From: Phycisphaerales bacterium
GTDB lineage: Bacteria > Planctomycetota > Phycisphaerae > Phycisphaerales > UBA1924
Direction: 5' to 3'
DNA length: 36,458 nucleotides
Assembly: GCA_026982335.1 (NCBI GenBank)
Contig: JALSHH010000054.1
Location: forward strand, 1 to 36,458
The notes beneath the pieces are model-generated. The model ran no database searches and was not told the origin of the DNA. It saw only the letters and a list, made by a program, of their open reading frames with translations. The translations under genes and the position numbers were made by a program. Positions 4,353 through 16,875 of the stretch are shown here, one piece after another (position 1 is the stretch's first letter; every line of letters begins with the position of its first letter).

Positions 4353-5000
4353 ATGGATAATGCGGTTACACTCATCCAGGCCTATCTTCGACTCAATGGT
4401 TACTTCACCGTTACCGAGTTCCCCATCGTTGAAGCAATCAAACACGGCGGGCATCGCACCGTGACCGATATTGATGTGCTTGCGTTTCGATTTCCCAGCG
4501 CCGGTCGGCTCATTACCCAAAAGGGCAAAGGCGCTCAGAAGGACCGCCTGATTGGAAGGATTGATTCGGCTTTGGGGATTTTGGACGATGGGGCCGACAT
4601 GATCATCGGCGAGGTTAAAGAAGGGCGCGCCCAGATCAATCACAGTGCACGCGACCCGGCGGTGCTTCGCGCTGCGTTGACGCGATTTGGGTGCTGTCAC
4701 GGCGATGAGGATAGAGATGGGCATGGAGATGGGGTGGATGCGTTGGTCGAGTCTCTGATTCGCAAAGGACAGGGCACGACTGAGGACGGGCACCGCGTCC
4801 GCATCGTAGCCTTTGGATCGGTTCTTCCCGAAACCGACCCGGGATACCACACGATCAGCTTGGGGCAGGTGATTGCGTATGCCAAGGCGTATTTGAACGA
4901 CCATTGGGAAGTGTTCCGGGTTGCCGAGCTCAAAGACCCGGCGTTGGGGTTCTTGGCCACGATGATTAAATCGGAAGCCGAGTCTACAGTTGCCCCATGA
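4353..5000 (+). CDS. Hypothetical protein with possible PD-(D/E)XK nuclease-like core
   Basis: I do not recognise this 215-aa protein as a named family. What can be seen: LNGYFTVTEF near residue 14, acidic TDIDVLAF with D39 and D41, and a strand IIGEVKEG with E87 and K89. This D...E-x-K arrangement is the minimal signature of the restriction-endonuclease-like fold, so a nuclease or decayed nuclease fold is possible. A Gly/Asp/His-rich segment (CHGDEDRDGHGDG, about 115-128) could be a flexible or metal-binding loop. It has no signal peptide and is probably cytoplasmic. A good ribosome-binding site (AAAGGA at 4342-4347) supports the start. It follows copA by 21 bp and overlaps the next gene by 4 bp, so it is in the operon, though nothing in it says why. 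Confidence 0.7.
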   Translation: MDNAVTLIQAYLRLNGYFTVTEFPIVEAIKHGGHRTVTDIDVLAFRFPSAGRLITQKGKGAQKDRLIGRIDSALGILDDGADMIIGEVKEGRAQINHSARDPAVLRAALTRFGCCHGDEDRDGHGDGVDALVESLIRKGQGTTEDGHRVRIVAFGSVLPETDPGYHTISLGQVIAYAKAYLNDHWEVFRVAELKDPALGFLATMIKSEAESTVAP

Positions 5001-5755
5001 AACCCAGAAAAATAACTTATATCGTCCATCGTTGGATCGGGCTCGTCATCTCGCTTCAGCTCTTGGCCTGGAGTGTTGGGGGGCTGATCTTTAGCGTATT
5101 GGATATCAATGAGGTGCGAGGGCACAATGATGCGGTGAGACAAGGCTTTGTCCCCATCGATCAAGAAACGATCCACGCGCTTCCTGTTGCTGTTCAAGAT
5201 GCACTTGGTCTTTATACGCCCGGCGAGATTGCCAGTGTCAATCTCGTCGATCGTGGGCTTGGTGCGTTCTGGGAGGTGCGCAATCGTGAGTCGGAGTTGT
5301 TGGTTCGGTTATATCCATTGGGTGAAGAATCAGGGATGATTACTCCGGAGCAAGCGCAGTTTATTGCCATGAATGATTTCATACCCGAAGCGGAAGTACA
5401 GCGCGTGGAACTTATTGAAGACAATCCGCCGGGCGAATATCGGGGAGGGGCGTTGCCGGTGTATCGTGTTGATCTTGCGCATCCGAAGAATCCACATATC
5501 TATGTTGATGCGATGACTGGGCGGATCAATGCTCGACGAAACGATGCTTGGCGTACATTCGATTTTTTTTGGATGTTACACATCATGGACTACAAGGAGC
5601 GAAGCGATTTTAACCACCCGCTGCTCATCATCGCCAGTATATTTGCAGTCGCAGCATCGGGAACTGGAATCGCACTTTGGGGATGGCGATTGATTCCCAA
5701 GTTCTTCTCGAACCGCAAGCGCACGAAGAGCATTCAGAACACTACCGCACCGTGA
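4997..5755 (+). CDS. PepSY-type membrane protein
   Basis: A 252-aa inner-membrane protein. Near the N-terminus, VHRWIGL (His 11) is followed by a hydrophobic segment at about 14-37. The last quarter has a second at about 206-227 followed by a basic tail. The long loop between them contains two PepSY-like beta/alpha units (around 115-180, with HIYVDAMTGRINARR). This layout matches the PepSY-TM family, members of which often accompany metal or siderophore uptake and respiratory genes. The ATG overlaps the stop of the preceding gene (ATGA), indicating translational coupling. Placement in the copA operon suggests a metal-related role, but the biochemical function is unknown. Its last 14 bp overlap the convergent adenine deaminase gene. 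Confidence 0.8.
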   Translation: MKPRKITYIVHRWIGLVISLQLLAWSVGGLIFSVLDINEVRGHNDAVRQGFVPIDQETIHALPVAVQDALGLYTPGEIASVNLVDRGLGAFWEVRNRESELLVRLYPLGEESGMITPEQAQFIAMNDFIPEAEVQRVELIEDNPPGEYRGGALPVYRVDLAHPKNPHIYVDAMTGRINARRNDAWRTFDFFWMLHIMDYKERSDFNHPLLIIASIFAVAASGTGIALWGWRLIPKFFSNRKRTKSIQNTTAP

Positions 5756-7502
5756 TGGGCACCACACATTGTTTTTGGACATCAATCAGCCCCATGTCTG
5801 TCAGTTTGAGCCTAGGGATCACAGGCAAAGGCAAGAAACTCAAAGGCATAAAGGGATCTTCGATTAGGCATCCGATGGTTTGGACACTTTTGAGTAGGGC
5901 ATCTTGTTGGTCGATGATTTTTTGAGCAGGCGCATCTGAAATCAGCCCGGCGATGGGTAAGGGCAAGAGACACAAAACCTGTCCATTTTTGACCACACAC
6001 TGCCCACCGTGCGCCTTTTCAAGTGCGCGAGCGGCGATGAGCATGTCCTCATCGTTGGTGCCGATTACCGCAAGGTTGTGTGCATCGTGTCCGACGGTGC
6101 TTGCCAGTGCGCCATTGGCGAATCCAAATCCGGTGACGAATCCAAGCCCGATTTGGTCAGAGATGCCATGTCGAGCGATGACTGCCATTTTGAGCAGATC
6201 ACGCGATGGATCGGTAACGAGGCATCCATTTTTGATTGTCGGCTCGATGTGTATCTCGCCGGTGATGAGCTGATGGGGGGTGGCCTGGATCGCACGGATG
6301 AGTTTGGTATCAGGCTCGGCTTTGATTTCAAATGATGCGATCGACAAGCTTTGGGGCAGTGTCACCGAATCTCGGCAGGGCGCATCGTTCGGATCCGACG
6401 CATGTTCGAGCATGCGCTCAACGATTGTGCCGTTTTGGGCAACGAGTTGACCTTGCCAGTATATAGTCCTCGGGCGGATATCGGTCAGGTCATCAAAGAC
6501 CATCAGATCGGCCTGGCGTCCGGGGGCGATCGCGCCCAGATCGGGCAACCGATAGTGCTCAGCAACATGCAGCGAGCCCATCGCTAAGGCTGTTGCGGGA
6601 TCGAGTCCCAGTGCAATGGCTTTGCGCACCACATGGTCGATGTGTCCCTGGCGATGCAGATCGCCGGGATGGCGATCATCGGTACACAGGCAGAATCGGG
6701 TTGCGTTTTGAGGGGTGATCGCAGGGATCAAGGCTTCGAGATTTCTCGCTGCACTTCCCTCACGGAGAAAGACCCGAAGCCCGAGTTTGATTTTTTCAAG
6801 TGCTTCGTCGCTCGTCGTGGATTCGTGATCGGAACTGATTCCCGATGATGCATATGCGCACAGATTCGATCCTGTGAGTCCGGGGCAGTGCCCATCGACG
6901 ATGGCTCGGTCGAGTCCGAGTTGGACTTTGGCGAGGATATCGGGATCGCCCATGAACACTCCTGGGAAGTTCATCATTTCGGCTAGGGCGATGACTCGTG
7001 GGTCATCGAAGAGTGGTGCGAGGTCATCCGCTTCGAGTTTGGCCCCACTGGTTTCGAAGCGCGATGAGGGCACGCACGATGAAGCAGCGAACATGATGTT
7101 CATTGGGAGGCCGGCGCTGGCGTCCATCAGGAATCTGATCCCTGCGATTCCAAGCACATTGGCGATCTCGTGTGGGTCGAAAACCACGCCGGTGGTGCCG
7201 TGAGGTGTTGCCATGCGGACAAACTCCCTAGGGATCATCATGGTGGACTCGACATGCATATGGGCATCAATGAGACCTGGAGCAAGGTATTGTCCTTGGA
7301 GGTCGATGGTTTTAGAGGCTTGGATCGGGTTTGAACTCAAGGCAGCGATCCGCCCGCCAAAGACTGAAACGGAAACCGTTTCGATGGTTCTGGTGAACAC
7401 ATTGACCACCTGCCCATTGATAAAGGCCAAGTCGGCCTGTCGATCACCGCGAGCGACCGCCATTAGTTCCGGGTTTGTTCGTGAAACCAATGGTGGGGTC
7501 AT
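5742..7502 (-). CDS. ade: Adenine deaminase
   Basis: Converts adenine to hypoxanthine and ammonia in purine salvage (EC 3.5.4.2), in the cytoplasm. The 586-aa protein has the amidohydrolase layout. An N-terminal beta sandwich leads into APGLIDAHMHVEST with metal ligands H81 and H83, then GTTGVVFDPHEIANV, a GHCPGLTG strand, CTDDRHP with the metal-site Asp, and a C-terminal domain characteristic of Ade (SIASFEIKAEP... to GFGFANGALASTVGHDAHN). The ATG at 7502 is chosen because GAGGAG lies 7 bases upstream. The open frame continues 104 codons further but looks non-coding there. It is convergent with the PepSY gene (14-bp overlap) and divergent from the next gene. No purine riboswitch was noticed upstream. 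Confidence 0.93.
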   Translation of the reverse strand: MTPPLVSRTNPELMAVARGDRQADLAFINGQVVNVFTRTIETVSVSVFGGRIAALSSNPIQASKTIDLQGQYLAPGLIDAHMHVESTMMIPREFVRMATPHGTTGVVFDPHEIANVLGIAGIRFLMDASAGLPMNIMFAASSCVPSSRFETSGAKLEADDLAPLFDDPRVIALAEMMNFPGVFMGDPDILAKVQLGLDRAIVDGHCPGLTGSNLCAYASSGISSDHESTTSDEALEKIKLGLRVFLREGSAARNLEALIPAITPQNATRFCLCTDDRHPGDLHRQGHIDHVVRKAIALGLDPATALAMGSLHVAEHYRLPDLGAIAPGRQADLMVFDDLTDIRPRTIYWQGQLVAQNGTIVERMLEHASDPNDAPCRDSVTLPQSLSIASFEIKAEPDTKLIRAIQATPHQLITGEIHIEPTIKNGCLVTDPSRDLLKMAVIARHGISDQIGLGFVTGFGFANGALASTVGHDAHNLAVIGTNDEDMLIAARALEKAHGGQCVVKNGQVLCLLPLPIAGLISDAPAQKIIDQQDALLKSVQTIGCLIEDPFMPLSFLPLPVIPRLKLTDMGLIDVQKQCVVPITVR

Positions 7503-7628
7503 CTGAGGCTCCTCATGATAGAGAGATCCTATCGGCGCTCGAGGCTCACGCCCAGTACGCAATATGGCCGATATGAGCGATGATTCGGGCGATTGGGTTG
7601 AATCGCCGGGTTGTTCTGGAGTGTGCTT

Positions 7629-9776
7629 ATGCTTTCTCGTTTGACCAGTTCCCCCTCTTCGCAGCTCGAATGCATCTCTGCCCAAGAACGCCTGAGCATT
7701 TTGATCAAGAATCTTGCTCGGATTGATCTGCCGGGTATGTCTCCTGAGCGTCTTGCGCATTGGCAAGCATGTACCAATGCGTCTCACGAGGCTGAGGATG
7801 TCCGCCGAGCGCACACTGAGCTGCTCGCCCCTCTGCTTGCTCGGCTCAGTGGACGGAACATGCCACCGATCATTCTTGAAGGGGTCGATTCGCCTTGGAT
7901 GCTCAAATCGCTCGTCGATGCACCTCCGCCCAAGGGTTCCTTGGGTTTTCGTCAGCGTGTACTCGTTATGCAGGCCGATTGGAACGAGTTTTTCGATGGA
8001 TTGGCGCGTTTGGATTTGGGCGATGGACTTGGCGATTCACGATTCGTCTGGTTCGTCGGCGAGGATGCGCCTGATCGGCTTGTCGAATGGGTCGATGCTC
8101 GGATCGACGATGCGCCGCCTGCGATGGCAGTGCAGTGCCCATCGCTGGGTAAAAAAGCGTCGCCGGATGCTCCCGAGCTTATTCGCGAGATCGATGCGCG
8201 GTGGACACGCAATGCTCAAGTACTCAAAGCCAAGGTTGCCAGGCGAGGGGTACGGGATCAATCGTGGTGGGCCAAGCGATTTGATTGCATCAACGACCCT
8301 GACGCTTGCGGTGAACCGATCCGGGTGCTGATTCCTGTTTCCCGGTATACGACCTACCTCAAGCACGCTGCAGAGGACCTTGCAGCATCATTTTCGGCCC
8401 GAGGGTGCCAGTGTCAGGTGCTGATGGAAACCGATGATTCTTCGATCATGTCCGAAAGCAGCACCCTGCGGGCGATCGACAAGTTTGATCCCGATTTGAT
8501 TGTGTCGATCAATTACACGCGCAGCTCGCTGGGCAGCAATATTCCCAAGGACATCCCGCATGTGTGCTGGATCCAAGATGCGATGTCTCACCTTTTTGAC
8601 GCCAAGGTCGGCAAGGCTTTGGGCAAATTGGATTTTGTTGTTGGGATGGTGAGTGATGAGTTGATTGAGCGACATGGTTATCCAAAGGCGCAGACCCAGT
8701 GGATGCCAATGGTTGCATCCCGGTCGAAGTTCTGGTCCAAGTCAATCACTGATGGGTTTGATTCCGAGATTGCATGGGTGACACACCAAAGCGAGCATCC
8801 CGATGTATTTCGCGATCGGATGGTCGAGGAAATGGCAACCAATGCGCCTGATGCTGCCTGCAAGTTTGCGCAAGTGCTCAGAGAAGTTGAATCAATGGTG
8901 ACGACAAATTCTCGTGCGCTGGTGTTTAACAGATTCCGTGAACTTGTCGATGATGCTTTTTTTCCTACAGGCGTTCCCGATGGTGCTTTTGAATTACGAT
9001 CGAGCTTGCTCCAAGGTATGGTTATTCCTTATGCGGAGCGTGTTTTTCGTCATCAAACTGCTTTGTGGGCAGCGAATATTGCAATACGCCGAGGATGGCG
9101 ATTTAAGCTCTACGGCAATGGGTGGGAAAGGCACCCTCAACTCAGTATGTTTGCTGCAGATCAACTCGAGCACGGTCCGGCATTGTGCAGATGCTATCGT
9201 GATTCGGTGGTTCATCTTCATGCCTCAATTAATCAGGTTACCCATCAACGCGTGAGCGAGTGCCTGCTCTCAGGTGGGCTTCCATTGTGCCGGATTGTGC
9301 GAGATGCATTTGGAATTATTCAGGCCAAGTTTCTTGATCGATGTTATCGGGAAAACATTGGATCATTGGTCGACGATCCAACCGTTGCGGAGAGCTCGAG
9401 TTCGGAGCAATGGCGTGTTGAGATCAAATCGTGCGATGAACTTCAGGAGTTGGTGAATGATTTCCATCGACTCAATTTGTATGATGAAGCAGCGTTCGAT
9501 TCGGGATGGATGATGTGGAATACAAAAGAGTTCGCCAGAGCTCGAGAGTTACTGGCCAGTCCAAGTAAACGAAGAAATGCGGAAATGATTCGTTTGATCA
9601 AGGATTTCTTTTTTACCAGTGAGGCACAACTTGAATCTCTTGTCGAACAGGCGATCAAAGATCGGATGTGGCGCCAAGATCGTATTGAATCGGTAAGACT
9701 CAATCTGTCCAGCGAACTTACATTCGATGGGTTTGCCAAAGGTGTGCTTAATTTGGTGAAGCGAAGGCTTGGTTGA
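7629..9776 (+). CDS. CgeB-like glycosyltransferase family protein
   Basis: A 715-aa protein, probably a cytoplasmic GT-B-fold glycosyltransferase of surface-glycan assembly. The clearest part is the C-terminal half. IRVLIPVSRYTTYLKHAAED opens a Rossmann-type domain near residue 232, PDLIVSINYTR follows, and RGWRFKLYGNGWE with HLHASINQVTHQRVSECLLS and GGLPLCR matches the Glyco_trans_1_2/CgeB signature. The N-terminal 220 residues (with RFVWFVGEDAPDRL) are unassigned. The ATG at 7629 has GGAG 8 bases upstream; a TTG at 7611 is the alternative. It begins a block of glycan genes, divergent from ade and convergent with the next glycosyltransferase. Donor and acceptor are unknown. Confidence 0.75.
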   Translation: MLSRLTSSPSSQLECISAQERLSILIKNLARIDLPGMSPERLAHWQACTNASHEAEDVRRAHTELLAPLLARLSGRNMPPIILEGVDSPWMLKSLVDAPPPKGSLGFRQRVLVMQADWNEFFDGLARLDLGDGLGDSRFVWFVGEDAPDRLVEWVDARIDDAPPAMAVQCPSLGKKASPDAPELIREIDARWTRNAQVLKAKVARRGVRDQSWWAKRFDCINDPDACGEPIRVLIPVSRYTTYLKHAAEDLAASFSARGCQCQVLMETDDSSIMSESSTLRAIDKFDPDLIVSINYTRSSLGSNIPKDIPHVCWIQDAMSHLFDAKVGKALGKLDFVVGMVSDELIERHGYPKAQTQWMPMVASRSKFWSKSITDGFDSEIAWVTHQSEHPDVFRDRMVEEMATNAPDAACKFAQVLREVESMVTTNSRALVFNRFRELVDDAFFPTGVPDGAFELRSSLLQGMVIPYAERVFRHQTALWAANIAIRRGWRFKLYGNGWERHPQLSMFAADQLEHGPALCRCYRDSVVHLHASINQVTHQRVSECLLSGGLPLCRIVRDAFGIIQAKFLDRCYRENIGSLVDDPTVAESSSSEQWRVEIKSCDELQELVNDFHRLNLYDEAAFDSGWMMWNTKEFARARELLASPSKRRNAEMIRLIKDFFFTSEAQLESLVEQAIKDRMWRQDRIESVRLNLSSELTFDGFAKGVLNLVKRRLG

Positions 9777-9801: not shown

Positions 9802-11364
9802 TCAAGGTTCTTGCAAGGCAGCACGCACGATCTCAGATGGTGGGGTATTTTGGGTTGGGTAGAGTCGATGCAATCGCACTCCCATGGATTCGATTGTTTC
9901 TTTTTTGGACCAGATGGTGTCCTCATAAATCCAGCTTGAGATTACCAGATCGGTTGCGCCCAACTTCGGGATCATGCCGGAAGGGTAGATTGGGTATCCG
10001 ATGAGCCCAGTACCGGCTTTGGATGGATCATCATCGACGATGCCAATAATTTGAGCGGGTGAGTCATTGATCGTTTTGCTGATATCTTTGGTGTGTTGTC
10101 CAGAGCAGAAAATCAATACTTTTTTGCCTGCCAATGACTCGAGCATGGTTTTCATCCGCTGGGCAGCATCAGGAGGGGTTGAGCCATCGAGTTCTGCAGC
10201 TTTGGCGCTATACGATGGGCGAAGGTGGTTGGGCCAAGGGCGATCAGGGCGCGAGGTTGTCCGGTCAATTAGGGCAACAAGCTTGTCGATGTGTGTGGGG
10301 ATGCTGTGGTTTTTGAGTGCAAGCAGGTGAGCGTTGCGGGCAATGGCAGGCATATCCATTTTCATAAGAGAAATGATGGCACCACATAACCTTGAAGCGA
10401 TTAATTGGGTCGGAGTATTCCATTGCGTGTCAACGCTCATTCCAGTGTGCCCGTTGATTACGGCATCGCTGGCACCCGAACGCACCTTGGTGACCACCGG
10501 AATACACCCTAGTGAGAGTGCTTCGAGCATTGCGACGCTTTGCCCTTCGTATCGCGAGGGCAATATCCAGAGATCTGCCCATCGCAGATGCTCAGGAATT
10601 TCTTCAGGAGGTACTGTTCCGATGTATTCGACATGATCATTGGAAGCGATTGCCTGGAGTAGTTTTTCTTTCTCAGGTCCATCACCCACAATTCGGAATT
10701 CAAAGTCAATGCCTCGATCACGCAGTGCATCGGCAAGGTGGGGGAGCACACTGACGCGTTTTTGTTGTTCGTGGAGACGCCCTGTATAGACAAGTCTCAA
10801 TGCTCGTCGTTCCATTGGTAGACGAGCCGGGCAATGGGGGGGGACTTCGACGCAGTATGGGATATGAAAAATATCTCGGATTCTTCCGGGTATGGCGCGT
10901 TCGGCGATTGAGTAGAGCTCGCTACTGACGGGGACAATCGCATGAATCATCGGCTCGTAGCGTTTGGCAACGGCGATATCGTATTCGTTGTCTGAATGAA
11001 TCCATGAAGCAACGCGGACAAGGTTGGGGTGGTTTTGGGCAATGGTTGCGATGGCACCGTAGCAATCGCCGTGGAGATTAGGGGAGATTATCACTGGTTT
11101 TCCAGTGATTGCGTACATTTCTTGAATTGCATGGAGGTAGACGGCGACAAGGGGGTCAAGGCATCCACGCAGATGGTGGATTGATGGGGCGTTGCGCACA
11201 GTAGCCGCAATGTAGGGTTGAAGAAATTGAGGAGGTGATTCGCCGGGCGGTGTATGGACAATGAGGCCTGCGGGAATGGATCGTTCTCGCAGGCCTTTGA
11301 TTGCGCGCAAAGCCCATGTGGTGACGCCGCTGACACATAGATGATCTGGTAGAATGATGAGCAT
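9802..11364 (-). CDS. GT4 glycosyltransferase with C-terminal GxHT Rossmann-like module
   Basis: A retaining GT-B glycosyltransferase (520 aa). The first domain opens with MLIILPDHLCVSGVTTWALR. The second contains LRLVYTGRLHEQQKRVSVLP near 218, FRIVGDGPEKEKLLQAI and PSRYEGQSVAMLEALSLGCI, the E-x7-E donor-binding signature of GT4 enzymes. After about residue 410 comes an extra domain (KKVLIFCSGQHTKD ... IIGIVDDDPSK ... DLVISSWIYED ... LHRLYP) not part of standard GT4 enzymes. The same module is present in the next two genes (see findings). It is divergently transcribed from the neighbour at 11477 across a 112-bp gap. The sugar and acceptor are unknown. Confidence 0.88.
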   Translation of the reverse strand: MLIILPDHLCVSGVTTWALRAIKGLRERSIPAGLIVHTPPGESPPQFLQPYIAATVRNAPSIHHLRGCLDPLVAVYLHAIQEMYAITGKPVIISPNLHGDCYGAIATIAQNHPNLVRVASWIHSDNEYDIAVAKRYEPMIHAIVPVSSELYSIAERAIPGRIRDIFHIPYCVEVPPHCPARLPMERRALRLVYTGRLHEQQKRVSVLPHLADALRDRGIDFEFRIVGDGPEKEKLLQAIASNDHVEYIGTVPPEEIPEHLRWADLWILPSRYEGQSVAMLEALSLGCIPVVTKVRSGASDAVINGHTGMSVDTQWNTPTQLIASRLCGAIISLMKMDMPAIARNAHLLALKNHSIPTHIDKLVALIDRTTSRPDRPWPNHLRPSYSAKAAELDGSTPPDAAQRMKTMLESLAGKKVLIFCSGQHTKDISKTINDSPAQIIGIVDDDPSKAGTGLIGYPIYPSGMIPKLGATDLVISSWIYEDTIWSKKETIESMGVRLHRLYPTQNTPPSEIVRAALQEP

Positions 11365-11476
11365 GAAAGAGCACTTCTACTGGGATATTCTCAACTTTTG
11401 GATGATTGTACCGCTGGGGATCGATCATGCAAGGCGATTGCATACCAGAAACAGGTCATTTTTATTGTAAGATTCT

Positions 11477-13552
11477 ATGTCTACACGCTTGAACAAAAGT
11501 TTTTCATCGAGATGCACGGTGTTGATCGTTGCGCCTGGGATGCGGGCCTATCACTTTGACGGGGTTGCCCAGGCGCTCGCTGAAAGTGGGTTGTCCGCAT
11601 GTTCCGAGACGATGCAGATTGGGCAAACTATTCATTTGACCCCCATGATGCTGCAGCAGGCAAGCGTGATTGTCCATGCTGATGGTGTGGGAATCAATGC
11701 GGTTATGGTTCATGGCAAACCGATCGAACCATCTCAACCAATTGTCCTTCAAATGGATGGTGTGCTCGAGTATGCCAACACTTTTCTTAATGCACATGCC
11801 GGGGAACGATTTCTTCAGCCTTCCCATGCCAATTTGGTTTTGGCATCTGGTCAGCACGACCGGGACATTCTGCGGGCACTGGGCAACCGTGCTGTTGCAA
11901 CGGGGCTTCCGAGACTTGACGGATTTGTCGATCGTGTGCGTCGGCAAGCAATGCGATCATGCCATGGCATACTTGTTGCCAGTGCCAATCAGCCGGCTTT
12001 TACCCCGGGGGCTCGATCCCGATTGATGGCATCGTTCAGAAGGGTCAAGGCTTACGCGACGAAACAGAATTTGTCGATTCGTTGGCGAATTGAGTCAGAA
12101 ATGGCCTGTGAGTTGGGTATTGAAAACGATGAAACGGATCTTGACGAGTTGTTGGCGAAGGTACGGTGTGTTTTGACCAGCGCATCGACATTGGCGATTG
12201 AATCCATGATGGCCAACAAACCCACTGCAATCCTTCATCCTCATCCGTGGGATTTATGGATTCCATGCGCATGGCGGTATGATGGGGACGCTTTGGATGG
12301 GATCGAAGAGGATCAAGCAGCTATGAATGCATTGCAGGGGAAGGACCATCGGGCCAATGTTGTAGCTTCCAATTCGATCGCCAAGATATGCGCCCAAACA
12401 ATCCCGATGACGACCAAGTCAATACCCGAGCTCTTTGATGCGTTGATGACCCCTTGCGCTGAGCTTATGGCTCTTCAAGAGCGCATCGTTGAACACTACA
12501 CTTGTACGGATTCTGCAAGACGGGTGGCCAGGGTCATTGGGCGGGTTGTGTCGTCGAATACAGGTTGTCGAAAATCAAGTAAGATTTCTGCACACGCAAT
12601 AGAGCCCAATAGTCGAATCATTGAAACCTTCGATGCGATCCGCAAAGCCCAATCATCGCGTGTTACGATCATTGCAAGTCGAGCACCTTCACTCGAGCTT
12701 GCCACACTCGTTGAACATCGGTTCGCAGAAATTGAAAGGTTCATTGTGCTTGGTGAACCAGATGGTGCTTCTTTTTTAGGTGTTGGGGCATTGAGTTTTT
12801 CGCAAATTCAAGAGCTCGGCATTTTGGACCAGTCTTTGCTGATTGTGCCTCAAGGTGATTGTGCCTTGGTGGTTGCTTTGCAAACTTTGGGTGTGTCAGT
12901 ATTTCATTCGTGTGTCTATAGCGATTGTGAGTTGATGCTGCATATTGATGAAGTGATGAAAAATATCCGAGAAGCAAGCTTGCGAGGGGAGGTGCGCACT
13001 ACGCTCAAAGAGACATTTATTGAAGGGGCTGAGCAGTATTCGTCTGCTCAAATTCTTCGTGGCAATCGGCCCGCGATGATTGTACTTCAGGGTGAGGAGA
13101 TTGATTTTGATCTTTATCAGAGGTCACATGGTTGGCGAGATCAGGGAACGATTGTCCGTTCGCTTGGGTGGAGTGATGCGGAGCTTTCTTCGCCGGAGTA
13201 TTTTGGATCGTTGGTGAGAAGTTTTGGCGATCAATCCTATGCGATTTATGGGGGCGGACTTCATACCCGCCGACTTCTTAGATATTCTGGACTCATACAT
13301 AGGCCTTGCATGATCCTTGATGATCAAGTTTCTCGTGGCGATGGCAAGATGCTTGATGGTATTCCAGTGGTTCACCCACAAGATATTCGGACAAACGAGG
13401 TTAATTTTCTGGTTCTCTCTTCATTTGTTCATGAGGAATCGTTGTGGAAAAGAGCAGCTTGTTTTCGTCAGATGGGTATGGGCGTCTATCGGCTTTATGG
13501 ATCCTCTGGGAAGATCGAGTCATCGCTCGGCAAACCAAGGTCCGGTGTATGA
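11477..13552 (+). CDS. Large GT-B-like protein with C-terminal GxHT module
   Basis: A 691-aa protein of uncertain function. The N-terminal 350 residues have the rhythm of a GT-B or capsule/teichoic-type transferase: VLIVAPGMRAYHFDGVAQAL, AVATGLPRLDGF, and CVLTSASTLAIESMMANKPT followed by AILHPHPWDLWIP, the sort of segment that binds a nucleotide sugar. Residues about 395-490 (RVTIIASRAPSLELATLVEH ... LLIVPQGD ... LQTLGVSVF) look like a degenerate Rossmann unit. Residues 584-675 (AIYGGGLHTRRLL ... MILDDQ ... FLVLSSFVHEE ... GVYRLYG) are the module shared with both neighbours. No clear ribosome-binding site precedes the ATG. Context places it in surface polysaccharide synthesis; the reaction is unknown. 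Confidence 0.65.
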   Translation: MSTRLNKSFSSRCTVLIVAPGMRAYHFDGVAQALAESGLSACSETMQIGQTIHLTPMMLQQASVIVHADGVGINAVMVHGKPIEPSQPIVLQMDGVLEYANTFLNAHAGERFLQPSHANLVLASGQHDRDILRALGNRAVATGLPRLDGFVDRVRRQAMRSCHGILVASANQPAFTPGARSRLMASFRRVKAYATKQNLSIRWRIESEMACELGIENDETDLDELLAKVRCVLTSASTLAIESMMANKPTAILHPHPWDLWIPCAWRYDGDALDGIEEDQAAMNALQGKDHRANVVASNSIAKICAQTIPMTTKSIPELFDALMTPCAELMALQERIVEHYTCTDSARRVARVIGRVVSSNTGCRKSSKISAHAIEPNSRIIETFDAIRKAQSSRVTIIASRAPSLELATLVEHRFAEIERFIVLGEPDGASFLGVGALSFSQIQELGILDQSLLIVPQGDCALVVALQTLGVSVFHSCVYSDCELMLHIDEVMKNIREASLRGEVRTTLKETFIEGAEQYSSAQILRGNRPAMIVLQGEEIDFDLYQRSHGWRDQGTIVRSLGWSDAELSSPEYFGSLVRSFGDQSYAIYGGGLHTRRLLRYSGLIHRPCMILDDQVSRGDGKMLDGIPVVHPQDIRTNEVNFLVLSSFVHEESLWKRAACFRQMGMGVYRLYGSSGKIESSLGKPRSGV

Positions 13553-13620
13553 AGTTCGGTAGGTTTTGAGTTTTCGGTTTTGGTGTGCAACTTTCTCTTT
13601 TTTTGACTATGATTTCGCCT

Positions 13621-14796
13621 ATGAGAACTCAAACCGATTCTGTCGATTCCAAACTTGCAGCGAGTTTTGCCCATCGCATGCGAAATCCGGGATCACCTGC
13701 TCTTCCCCTTCTTCAGGCCCTCCGCAATCAAGTGCTTGAGCGCACTGCTGCCATGTTTCGTGCTCAAGGGATTACTGATATCGCACTTTTTGGTGCCGGT
13801 GGTCATACGCGTCCGATCGTTCGTCAGCCTTGGACACGCTATGGCGTTTCAGTTCGTGTAATTTTCGATGATCATCCGACTCGGCCGGCAATGGGAGGCA
13901 TTCCGATTGCCAAGCCTTGTCGAGAGGATCTTCCCGATGTGGTAGGGGCCATTGTCATCAGTTCTCAATGCTACGAGCACAAGCTTTTTGGCCGAGCCAG
14001 CAAAATTTTTGCTGAGTTTGATCTTCCCATTGTCAAGCTTTATACCACCGACGACGCGCCTTATCAGGCGGATCGTACGCTTGAGCGTTTGGCTTCTCTT
14101 CCGGATCTTACCTTAGACGAGGCGCGTTGGCTTGTTGAAAATCGAGGGGAACGACATGATGCGCTTCTTCCGATGCTTCCTCCTGCGCGCACTGAGCTTC
14201 ATATCAGACGATATGAATTGGCTGCGGATTTGATTGATCGCATCGACGCATCCATTGTTGCTGATCTTGCTTGTGGAACGGGTTATGGTTCGACAGTTCT
14301 CGCGCATGATCATGACATAACCTATTTGGGTGTGGATATTGATCTGCCAACGATTCGATATGCTCAAAAGCGCTATGGATCACCAACACACCAATTCCAC
14401 TGCGCCTCGGCGATCGAACTTCCGATTGGTGATAGTGAGGTTGATCTGATTGCCAGCTTCGAAACGATTGAACACATTGAGGAGACCGAAAAACTCTGTG
14501 CTCAGTATGCCAGGATACTCAAACCTGACGGGCTTCTCGTGGTGAGTACTCCTCACAAACTTGGGCCGACTCCGCATCATGTTTACGATTGGGACCTTGA
14601 AGAGTTTATCAATGCCCTTGAGCCGAATTTTAAAATCATTGAGCTTATCGGTCAGCTTCCTGTTGACGAAGTTTTCGACCCCAGCCTCCCCCCCGGTATG
14701 TGGTACCTCGACCCAACCCAATCCGGCAATCAACCTAATATTCAACCCACAGTCCGTCGTCCCGACTTCCTCATCGCCATCGCGAAACACTCATGA
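13621..14796 (+). CDS. SAM-dependent methyltransferase with N-terminal GxHT module
   Basis: A 391-aa fusion. Residues 50-142 carry the shared Rossmann-like module (DIALFGAGGHTRPIV, VIFDDHP, AIVISSQCYEH, IVKLYT). Residues 190-390 are a class I methyltransferase: motif I VADLACGTGYGST at 213-225, an acidic strand TYLGVDIDL, LIASFETIEHIEE, and ILKPDGLLVVSTPH. It probably methylates a glycan precursor or sugar. The start is uncertain. The ATG at 13621 is chosen; an ATG at 13609 and a GTG at 13585 are in frame, and none has a good ribosome-binding site. The stop overlaps that of the convergent next gene in the six bases TCATGA. Composition changes from T-rich to C-rich near 14680, within the gene. 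Confidence 0.82.
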   Translation: MRTQTDSVDSKLAASFAHRMRNPGSPALPLLQALRNQVLERTAAMFRAQGITDIALFGAGGHTRPIVRQPWTRYGVSVRVIFDDHPTRPAMGGIPIAKPCREDLPDVVGAIVISSQCYEHKLFGRASKIFAEFDLPIVKLYTTDDAPYQADRTLERLASLPDLTLDEARWLVENRGERHDALLPMLPPARTELHIRRYELAADLIDRIDASIVADLACGTGYGSTVLAHDHDITYLGVDIDLPTIRYAQKRYGSPTHQFHCASAIELPIGDSEVDLIASFETIEHIEETEKLCAQYARILKPDGLLVVSTPHKLGPTPHHVYDWDLEEFINALEPNFKIIELIGQLPVDEVFDPSLPPGMWYLDPTQSGNQPNIQPTVRRPDFLIAIAKHS

Positions 14797-16065
14797 GCAC
14801 GAAGCCGGTGCTTGTGCCCAATGGGCGATCTCAGGGTCTGTATCAACAAGCGCATACCGATCGTCATACCAGCACGATCGCGGACGCCCCGCGAGCCTCG
14901 CAGTGATCAAATCCTCATCCGCCGATCGCATCATCTGCACATCGTGCTCAACTGATACCACCTTCTTCATCCGCCGAGACGCCTGAAACTGCTCGATCAC
15001 AGGCTCGCAGTCCCCATACTTCGCCTGCGTTTCAAGATCAAATATCTTCGCATAACTCGGAGGCAACCACATCGTCCGCAACGCGTGCCTCGCTGCCACC
15101 CGCTCCCATGCGGTGTCAAGGTGAATCTGATCCCACACATCAGGTGCACGCTGGCATTCTTCAACCCACGCATCAAGCACCCGCTGAGCGTTCTCGGTCC
15201 GGTTGAAGTAGGTTGTTCCACTGGCAAACTGCCACCCGCCAGCCTTTGACACTGCAAAGTCCATCTCCGCTCCGCCCAAGAGCAGCGGGGGCGAACGCAG
15301 CACCGCGTCCGCATCGACCCAAAGCACCGGACGCGTATATTTCTCCGAACAATCCTTCACAAACTGTGCCTTCATCGCGCAGTTGCGTTCCCAGCTCCCG
15401 CGTGATGCAACCCCCTCGATGAAGTGCTCAATCCCAAGCTCAACACACGAACGCCTGAGGTTTTTCACCTCTTCTTCATAAGGCGTATCAAGTGTAAAAT
15501 ACGAAATCACCAACGGCACCGAGGCCGCGCTGCATTGGGCAATCTCAGGCTCAAGCCCACCATACCAGAGCATCGGCCCGGGATAATCTGCGCATGACCC
15601 AATCATCCCATGTTCAATATACAACGCCTTGGCATCGTCATACCAATGCCGCTGCGCATCATGGACGAACAGCACCCCGCCGGGCGCAAGCAATGATCGC
15701 GCATGCGCCATGCACGCCGAGCGGGCTACTCCATCGACGATAATCACATCAAACACTTCGCCGTCAACTGCATGGATGTAGTCATCGAGATGCGTCGGAT
15801 CCTCTTCCGCAATCGTCGCATTCGCCCCCGGCTCTCCATCGGCGGGGCAGCAGATCAACCGAACATGCTCACGCTTTCCGACTTTGCCCACAACAGTCTT
15901 GTGCCAACCGGCATGATGCTCTATGCTCGTCAGGTGCGCATCAGGCGGCAAAAACTCCGCCAACCAAAGCGTTGATCCCCCCGAACCCCACTCAAGCACC
16001 CGCCCCCCCGGCTTGATGTGCCTCAAAATACACTCACGATGATCTCGCCCTGTTATACATCTCAT
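14791..16065 (-). CDS. Methyltransferase-like domain fused to a glycosyltransferase-like domain
   Basis: A 424-aa two-domain protein. Residues 1-175 are a class I methyltransferase-like fold with RVLEWGSGGSTLWLAEF at 22-38 as motif I, LTSIEHHAGW, VFDVIIVDGVAR and LLAPGGVLFVHDAQ. Residues 185-420 resemble nucleotide-diphospho-sugar (GT-A) transferases. VISYFTLDTPYEEEVKNLR opens the domain, PVLWVDADAVLRSPP gives a D251-A-D253 metal/donor motif, and FASGTTYFNRTENAQ and DQIHLDTAWE follow, similar to DUF616/GT77-type enzymes. The fusion suggests a modification and a transfer acting on one glycan. The strand is opposite to both flanking methyltransferase genes. The family match of the first domain is by pattern only. 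Confidence 0.72.
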   Translation of the reverse strand: MRCITGRDHRECILRHIKPGGRVLEWGSGGSTLWLAEFLPPDAHLTSIEHHAGWHKTVVGKVGKREHVRLICCPADGEPGANATIAEEDPTHLDDYIHAVDGEVFDVIIVDGVARSACMAHARSLLAPGGVLFVHDAQRHWYDDAKALYIEHGMIGSCADYPGPMLWYGGLEPEIAQCSAASVPLVISYFTLDTPYEEEVKNLRRSCVELGIEHFIEGVASRGSWERNCAMKAQFVKDCSEKYTRPVLWVDADAVLRSPPLLLGGAEMDFAVSKAGGWQFASGTTYFNRTENAQRVLDAWVEECQRAPDVWDQIHLDTAWERVAARHALRTMWLPPSYAKIFDLETQAKYGDCEPVIEQFQASRRMKKVVSVEHDVQMMRSADEDLITARLAGRPRSCWYDDRYALVDTDPEIAHWAQAPASCS

Positions 16066-16164: not shown

Positions 16165-16875
16165 ATGAACACCCTTCTCGCCGACACCCCGCAGTCAGAT
16201 TTTCATTCGTGGAGATACCTCCGAAACACCGCCCGAAGGCTCGAACACCTCGCGACGCTCGGGCTTGAGTTCAATGGAAAAACCATTCTCGAACTCGGCG
16301 CAGGCATCGGCGATCTCTCCACATTTTTCCTCGATCGCGGAGCAATCGTCCACGCAACCGAAGGCCGACCCGAGAACTATGCCTTCCTCAAAGACCGCTT
16401 CGAGGACGAACCAAACATCACCACCCAACTCATCGACCTCGATCCTCCACCAGCAGACTTCGAGAAAACCTTCGACATCGTCATGTCCTATGGCCTGCTC
16501 TACCACCTCTCCGATCCAGCTGCCGGATTAGATTTCATGAACCAATCCGCCCGAGACCTTCTCCTTCTCGAATCAATCTGCCTCCCCGGCGATGAACTCA
16601 GCATCAATCCGTACGAAGAGATTCAGACACAAGCCGGTGCTGCCTATTCAGGAATGGGGTGTCGCCCAACCCGAAAGTGGGTTTTTAAACAACTCAAAGA
16701 ACGATTCAACTATGTCTATCTCCCCACGACCCAACCATCACATATTGAGTTCCCAACCGATTGGACTCGAAAATCCCATCCTGCAGCCACCCGCTCAGTC
16801 TTCATCGCTTCAAGAACCTCGCTCAACAATCCGTTGCTCACCCAAGATCTCCTCACGATTCAGACGCCAGTCTGA
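16165..16875 (+). CDS. Class I SAM-dependent methyltransferase
   Basis: A 236-aa cytoplasmic methyltransferase. FNGKTILELGAGIGDLSTFF at about 36-55 is motif I, VHATEGRPENYAFLKDRF holds the acidic residue of motif II, FDIVMSYGLLYHLSDPAAGL is motif IV, and LLLLESICLPGD is a later core strand. The C-terminal part (RKWVFKQLKERFNYVYLPTT) is a substrate-side extension. The substrate is unknown; the position at the end of the glycan block suggests a sugar or glycolipid. It is divergent from the fused methyltransferase/glycosyltransferase gene with a 99-bp gap. Confidence 0.82.
   Translation: MNTLLADTPQSDFHSWRYLRNTARRLEHLATLGLEFNGKTILELGAGIGDLSTFFLDRGAIVHATEGRPENYAFLKDRFEDEPNITTQLIDLDPPPADFEKTFDIVMSYGLLYHLSDPAAGLDFMNQSARDLLLLESICLPGDELSINPYEEIQTQAGAAYSGMGCRPTRKWVFKQLKERFNYVYLPTTQPSHIEFPTDWTRKSHPAATRSVFIASRTSLNNPLLTQDLLTIQTPV

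Follow-up and report, generated by a model that had tools for sequence, protein, structure and literature searches.

Could one small domain be reused by several enzymes of a single glycan gene cluster, and if so, what would it do there? This question is raised by a 36,458-nucleotide stretch of DNA from a Phycisphaerales bacterium (GenBank assembly GCA_026982335.1, contig JALSHH010000054.1), called the window below, in which a GT4 glycosyltransferase (P0001), a second protein (P0002) and a class I SAM methyltransferase (P0003) are encoded side by side (Table 1). A first-pass annotation had proposed that the three proteins, otherwise unrelated, carry the same module, at the C-terminus of the former two and near the N-terminus of the latter. 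The module was indeed found at these places. The two-sequence blastp E-values are 8.2e-8 for GT4/P0002, 2.5e-7 for P0002/methyltransferase and 2.8e-4 for GT4/methyltransferase, and the local alignment scores are 92, 88 and 61 versus 46, 48 and 57 for the best of 1000 shuffles, respectively, the last pair beating its shuffles narrowly. Fourteen columns never vary across the three aligned modules, among them those of G-x-H-T, I-x-DD, G-x-P, V-x-SS, E and LY, in agreement with the motif given in the first-pass annotation; the P0002 and methyltransferase modules are 22–25% identical to the GT4 copy. By these alignments, the segments of the three proteins are homologous. When the three-sequence profile is run against the 2.56-Mb genome of the same organism, the strong matches are the three window copies only, and the next match (E 5e-4) lies at the site of the genome's only PglD_N match at E ≤1e-6.

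As to the rest of the proteins, the description "otherwise unrelated" is certain for the methyltransferase alone, since outside its module P0002 shares stretches with longer proteins, several of which have a GT4 domain further on. In addition, P0002 may contain a decayed second module at residues 393–478, judged solely by the alignment with residues 269–357 of an L082 protein (E 1.5e-2; 36.2 bits in a more sensitive search), where the module is decayed yet detectable. The module profile gives no match at this P0002 segment.

Table 1. Coordinates of the module-bearing genes, their modules and the neighbouring genes in the window.
Feature	Coordinates	Strand	Evidence
GT4 glycosyltransferase P0001, module-bearing	9802..11364	-	Pfam Glyco_trans_1_4, E 1.8e-24
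Module at C-terminus of GT4 protein P0001, residues ~409-505 of 520	9850..10140	-	blastp, alignment, profile, AF2 model
Second module-bearing protein P0002 ("GT-B-like" is the label of the first-pass annotation)	11477..13552	+	No Pfam domain over cut-off
Module at C-terminus of P0002, residues ~581-675 of 691	13217..13501	+	blastp, alignment, profile
Possible decayed second module in P0002, residues ~393-478, lacking H-T and DD (tentative)	12653..12910	+	Alignment with decayed L082 module
Class I SAM methyltransferase P0003, module-bearing	13585..14796	+	Pfam Methyltransf_11, E 3e-18
Module near N-terminus of methyltransferase P0003, residues ~56-153 of 403	13750..14043	+	blastp, alignment, profile, model
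Neighbour with Methyltransf_24 and sub-threshold Nucleotid_trans, without module	14791..16065	-	Pfam; comparison with relatives
Neighbour P0004, ~720 aa, sub-threshold Glyco_trans_1_2 match, without module	7611..9776	+	Pfam; homologue search
Neighbour, small SAM methyltransferase without module	16165..16875	+	Pfam; comparison with relatives

Then, what kind of domain is it? AlphaFold2 predicts, with confidence, a Rossmann-like fold for the GT4 module (pLDDT 92.1, pTM 0.83). In the full-length model of the methyltransferase (pTM 0.63), the module part has the same strand order, and SAM methyltransferase-type matches occur among the best 50 of its fold search. For the GT4 module, Foldseek places the N-domain of 3nkl, which we take to be the N-terminal domain of FlaA1/WbpM-type proteins, in front (E 1.8e-4), followed by Rex repressors and, lower, by KijD1 (E 2e-3, TM by query up to 0.65), TcaB9, the FkbM enzyme 2py6 and a perosamine N-acetyltransferase; 10 matches reach E 1e-3, every one of them 3nkl or Rex. 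In the profile search against PDB sequences, 3nkl is again the best match (E 1.6e-7), followed by the perosamine N-acetyltransferase 4ea7 (3.6e-4) and 7txp (0.01). The weaker matches to KijD1 (0.017), TcaB9 (0.041; the E-values for TcaB9/KijD1 span 0.017–0.074), the mycarose C-methyltransferase (0.086) and 2py6 (0.15) carry no significance by themselves, because seemingly unrelated chains score better in the same search, namely 4p99 (0.0025) and a designed protein (0.0044).

The profile–profile comparison with hhalign gives a probability of 97.7 over 104 columns against the C-terminal domain of sugar C-methyltransferases (9 rows) and of 96.9 over 45 columns against PglD_N-type domains (30 rows), while three control alignments of partner enzymes give 0.1, 2.8 and 0.6. 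Therefore, the resemblance noted in the first-pass annotation, to the N-terminal domain of PglD (a UDP-sugar-binding domain), holds over the first half of the module, in predicted fold as well as in profile, and the closest full-length kin, as far as profiles can tell, is the C-terminal domain of sugar C-methyltransferases. In genomes scanned with both, a 111-row module profile (at most 11 candidates scored per genome) reaches two of five Methyltransf_14 loci (E 2.6e-8 and 4.8e-8, in G077 and G198) and misses those in G220, G325 and G352; one PglD_N locus is reached (E 9.4e-7, G077) and most are missed. On this evidence the module is a Rossmann-like domain of about 95 residues, which forms its own lineage-expanded branch of the superfamily comprising PglD_N and Methyltransf_14.

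The same profiles were used to follow the module across genomes. The three-sequence profile matches 36 of 392 genomes of the phylum at E ≤1e-4, and its matches below 1e-10 come from the organism's own family and one genome of the order. With the 111-row profile, 106 of the 392 match at 1e-6; E-values below 1e-18 are confined to the own family and two further genomes, one from the order and one from elsewhere in the phylum, and beneath this group lies a long tail of weaker superfamily matches shading up to 2e-15. Because matches below 1e-18 are so confined, more than generic Rossmann similarity is involved, and the module is, by its profile matches, a specific domain subfamily. Generic Rossmann similarity alone was considered and ruled out on the same distribution. 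Within the own family, a 23-row profile matches 130 of 163 genomes and 62 of 74 genera at E ≤1e-5, mostly with 1–4 copies per matching genome and 6 at most. A scan of a genome collection, seeded with a pattern requiring GAGxHT, gave 149 stretches and 106 relatives, the best 80 of which were kept and yielded 77 loci. According to the record titles, 58 of these loci are planctomycete, 4 are unspecified and 15 belong to other named groups (Lentisphaerae, Spartobacteria, Deltaproteobacteria, Desulfobacterales, Pelobacter, Magnetospirillum, Romboutsia, Schekmanbacteria, Omnitrophica and an uncultured proteobacterium). One module matches three plasmid records, which are annotated as nucleoside-diphosphate sugar epimerase/dehydratase. 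The scan of viral contigs with the three-sequence profile gave 44 pattern stretches and zero relatives.

The reuse at different ends of different glycan enzymes, noted in the first-pass annotation for three proteins, extends far beyond the window. In the window and loci L036–L155 (with L001–L035 left out, and the loci cut and partly overlapping), 176 distinct modules were counted in 169 ORFs of 106 loci. Their partners, classed by clustering, with a one-by-one Pfam scan of 61 module-bearing proteins, are GT4-type for 62 modules, a class that takes in P0002-type proteins without a Pfam GT4 match, MT11/23 for 32, GT2, MT24/TylF and GT-A-like for 12 each (the last label being read from sequence because Pfam gave no enzyme match) and FkbM for 11. 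Rarer partners are radical SAM enzymes (6), GSCFA (3), GDSL-like proteins (3, with Pfam scores below the cut-off) and methyltransferase-deacetylases (2); a sulfotransferase, a glycerophosphotransferase and a sulfatase occur once each, and 18 modules have no class given. The module lies on the C-terminal side in 131 of 152 rows of the module tree and on the N-terminal side in 21, and tandem modules are present in single proteins of L126 (three), L136 and L109 (two each). These partner enzymes probably assemble and decorate a surface glycan.

If the module binds a ligand, which residues would form the site? In a PglD-type enzyme (PMC8040287), two Asp residues make the contacts to uracil and ribose, and right next to the sugar lies Cys13, the equivalent of His15 in PglD. 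In the hhalign alignment, the H and the D-D of the module fall on these positions, and the Asp-Asp and the His are present in all three window copies. In the GT4 copy, H and D-D are spaced as in PglD (20 and 21 residues), and the other two window copies are off by one. The module has Gly where PglD has a Ser that contacts ribose and can reach a phosphate, and the next Gly is variable; thus the phosphate loop differs from that of PglD.

Since the 77 loci were seeded with a GAGxHT-requiring pattern, the copies matching the pattern were counted apart. Among 53 copies found by profile, which lean to the consensus because they are top-scoring matches, H is kept in 49, T in 51, D1 in 53, D2 in 51, S1 in 50, S2 in 29, E in 46 and Tyr in 46. 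In the pattern-seeded loci, 48 copies deviate from the HT pattern; in this set, which leans away from the consensus, the numbers are 38, 31, 47, 41, 38, 33, 31 and 35, respectively. D1 is kept in 175 of the 176 modules, across all partner classes; T is kept in only 7 of 12 modules on GT2 partners and E in none of 3 on GSCFA partners, and the copies in L101 and L113 have no H-T at all. Nine of the 10 most conserved polar columns are located at or just after strand ends, a zone of 32 among 90 mapped positions (P 2e-4, with the zone drawn by us and the tenth column mostly gaps).

The site would thus be a cleft at the C-terminal edge of the sheet, made up of the G-x-G-x-H-T loop after strand 1, the D-D after strand 2, the S-S-x-x-x-E after strand 4 and the Tyr after strand 5. 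It may bind a nucleotide diphosphate or a nucleotide-diphosphate sugar in the manner of PglD, the Asp pair contacting ribose and base and the His lying close to the sugar. Enzymes that use unlike donors (NDP-sugar, SAM, sulfate donor) have much the same site, and for this reason the ligand is likelier to be a handle on a substrate that they share, or a regulator common to them, than the donor of each. In the former case, the module would anchor the shared substrate and concentrate it locally at each active site, and it perhaps holds a sugar intermediate common to the pathway. Because the site residues are kept on unlike enzymes and lie along the sheet's C-terminal edge, an accessory site for a nucleotide-type ligand is favoured. 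On balance, then, we think it somewhat probable that the module is an accessory nucleotide-type ligand-binding domain on glycan enzymes, which anchors their common substrate. Against this reading, a donor-binding glycosyltransferase has no obvious need for a second nucleotide site, and Rossmann-like folds also bind NAD, SAM or CoA; Rex stands above KijD1 in the fold ranking. The altered phosphate loop, the copies lacking H-T and the Methyltransf_14 and PglD_N loci missed by the module profile weigh on this side too.

The first-pass annotation had left the choice between docking and ligand binding open. If the modules bound one another or a common scaffold, the enzymes of one glycan cluster would form a complex and the conserved edge would be a protein interface, which we consider unlikely on the whole. 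Module-bearing genes do adjoin: in the 77 loci, which span at most about 12 kb and are in many cases cut by contig ends, at least two module genes are found in 37 and at least three in 20, and among the matches listed a module pair lies within 12 kb in 25 of the 37 family genomes with at least two copies. The tandem copies also fit docking, as does the set of partners, which seem to have the kind of pathway in common and not the kind of donor. However, a single module gene is present in the other 40 loci, cut as they are, and the neighbour at 14791–16065 is without the module that its 50–53% identical relatives in L107, L120 and L135 have at the C-terminus. The module tree bears on the same question. 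For 152 modules, in a tree with 66 of 149 inner branches open, the partner class needs 38 changes versus 91.7 after shuffling. In the 81 rows from multi-module loci, it needs 22 versus 47.6, whereas the locus needs 65 versus 70.7, a slight grouping (0 of 100 shuffles as low) that counts for docking and also fits local duplication. Modules mostly travel with their enzyme, more than with their locus; the enzyme signal is by far the stronger of the two, and so strong locus-specific matching is absent. Moreover, it is the polar residues of the Rossmann ligand edge that are conserved, and ligand binding is consequently favoured over docking.

Two other readings concern the ligand itself. A sensor that binds a metabolite, such as a nucleotide or a UDP-sugar, and tunes each glycan enzyme allosterically would also account for a site much alike on enzymes with unlike donors. 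Rex repressors, which are NAD(H) sensors, are among the nearest folds, and a homologous enzyme can lack the module. On the other hand, the kindred domain of the C-methyltransferases is a substrate-holding part rather than a regulator. The same applies to the characterised PglD-type kin (PMC8040287), and we regard such a sensor as decidedly improbable. Still less credible, and in our view very improbable indeed, is an inert structural add-on spread by duplication and binding no ligand. Decayed-looking copies exist, as in L082, by alignment in P0002, and in L101 and L113, but D1 is invariant and H nearly so in the profile-found copies despite the low identity among the window copies, and the module is present in 130 of 163 family genomes.

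The neighbourhood of the module also includes genes without it. P0004 has a homologue in 141 of the 163 family genomes; among the matches listed, it lies within 12 kb of a module in 57 of the 102 genomes with both, and more than 12 kb away on the same contig in 7. A link to flagellin glycosylation was considered and set aside: flagellin-family matches in the organism's own genome are on contigs C7 and C46, while the window is on C54. The ORFs of the retrieved loci yielded none resembling a flagellin, a weak negative since the query frames (the longest ones of L158, L159 and L160) look unlike flagellins.

Returning to the accessory ligand-binding domain, a more specific form of it can be imagined, in which the family's planctomycete glycosyltransferases, methyltransferases, radical SAM enzymes, sulfotransferases and acyl-type enzymes of one pathway would all use the module to recognise a single tethered intermediate by its nucleotide or diphosphate end. 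The module would then act as a "handle reader" of a glycan assembly line, comparable to the use of a carrier protein in polyketide synthesis, a proposal that we hold to be quite doubtful. In any case, most genomes of a large planctomycete family contain this accessory domain, which is attached to glycan enzymes of many unlike kinds. If the common ligand is real, the genes marked by the module would belong to one shared pathway, probably for a surface glycan, in a phylum that has been little studied, and a single test of binding could disclose the pathway's chemistry. A literature search, judged at the level of result listings, found no description of the module. Judged by sequence, what is new is a branch of its own in a known superfamily, with H-T plus D-D, an unusual breadth of partners and a planctomycete expansion.

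How does the module compare with known systems? The N-domain of 3nkl, which heads both the PDB sequence and the fold ranking, is without H-T. The N-terminal part of the FkbM methyltransferase structure 2py6 matches in fold (E 2.8e-3) and, over residues 51–108, in sequence; however, the similarity is weak, and on FkbM proteins the H-T branch is mostly C-terminal. PglD_N (PF17836; perosamine N-acetyltransferase, VioB) has the glycine-rich loop with His and the D-D after strand 2, but the module has Thr after the His and the kinship covers the first half only. In addition, PglD_N enzymes have a left-handed beta-helix acyltransferase, to which there is no match in the three window proteins; the Thr and the missing acyltransferase had both been pointed out in the first-pass annotation. 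Methyltransf_14 (PF08484; TcaB9, KijD1) is homologous over the whole module and matches in fold, and one cluster of module proteins likewise places the module behind a SAM methyltransferase, with L116, L128 and L147 there over the cut-off. However, Methyltransf_14 has A-K-G and a single D where the module has H-T and D-D, and the partners of the module reach far beyond methyltransferases. None of the Pfam models reaches its cut-off on any window copy: the GT4 module scores 17.5 versus 23.4 bits for PglD_N and 12.3 versus 23.5 bits for Methyltransf_14, and the other two match neither. Among the relatives, a few (in L091, L109 and L126) pass the PglD_N cut-off and some (in L116, L126, L128, L136 and L147) that of Methyltransf_14; thus the module links both families.

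The glycosyltransferase-like protein next to the module genes (about 720 aa), whose match to Glyco_trans_1_2 in the Pfam scan was sub-threshold, has a homologue in 141 of the 163 genomes of the organism's own family, mostly in single copy, and module genes often adjoin this homologue there. It is likely that this is a core glycan gene. The amidohydrolase-like ORF, as listed, overlaps its start, and a homologue of that ORF is also present in L123, one of the loci from other genomes with module relatives.

Coordinates of the features discussed
Sequence	Position	Strand	Feature
Window	7611-9776	+	glycosyltransferase-like protein
Window	5742-7814	-	adenine-deaminase/amidohydrolase-like ORF (assigned by eye from sequence)
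L126 (Lentisphaerae)	5011-7044		GT2 protein, three modules in tandem
L151 (Romboutsia)	4818-5840		TylF-type protein adjoining module gene
L151 (Romboutsia)	10843-12018		second gene, very weak match only

Short module proteins, with an N-terminal region of about 200-270 aa, were found in L065, L067, L075, L051, L054 and L037 (sequence clusters 8 and 9); no enzyme family was matched in the Pfam scan of four such proteins (L037, L054, L071 and L075). On the Lentisphaerae GT2 protein, near whose gene radical SAM/SPASM genes are located, PglD_N and Methyltransf_14 both exceed their cut-offs. The TylF-type protein of Romboutsia scores 22.2 bits against PglD_N, slightly below the cut-off. Since it begins with a related GAG-type stretch lacking H-T, its sequence hints at a family wider than the module.
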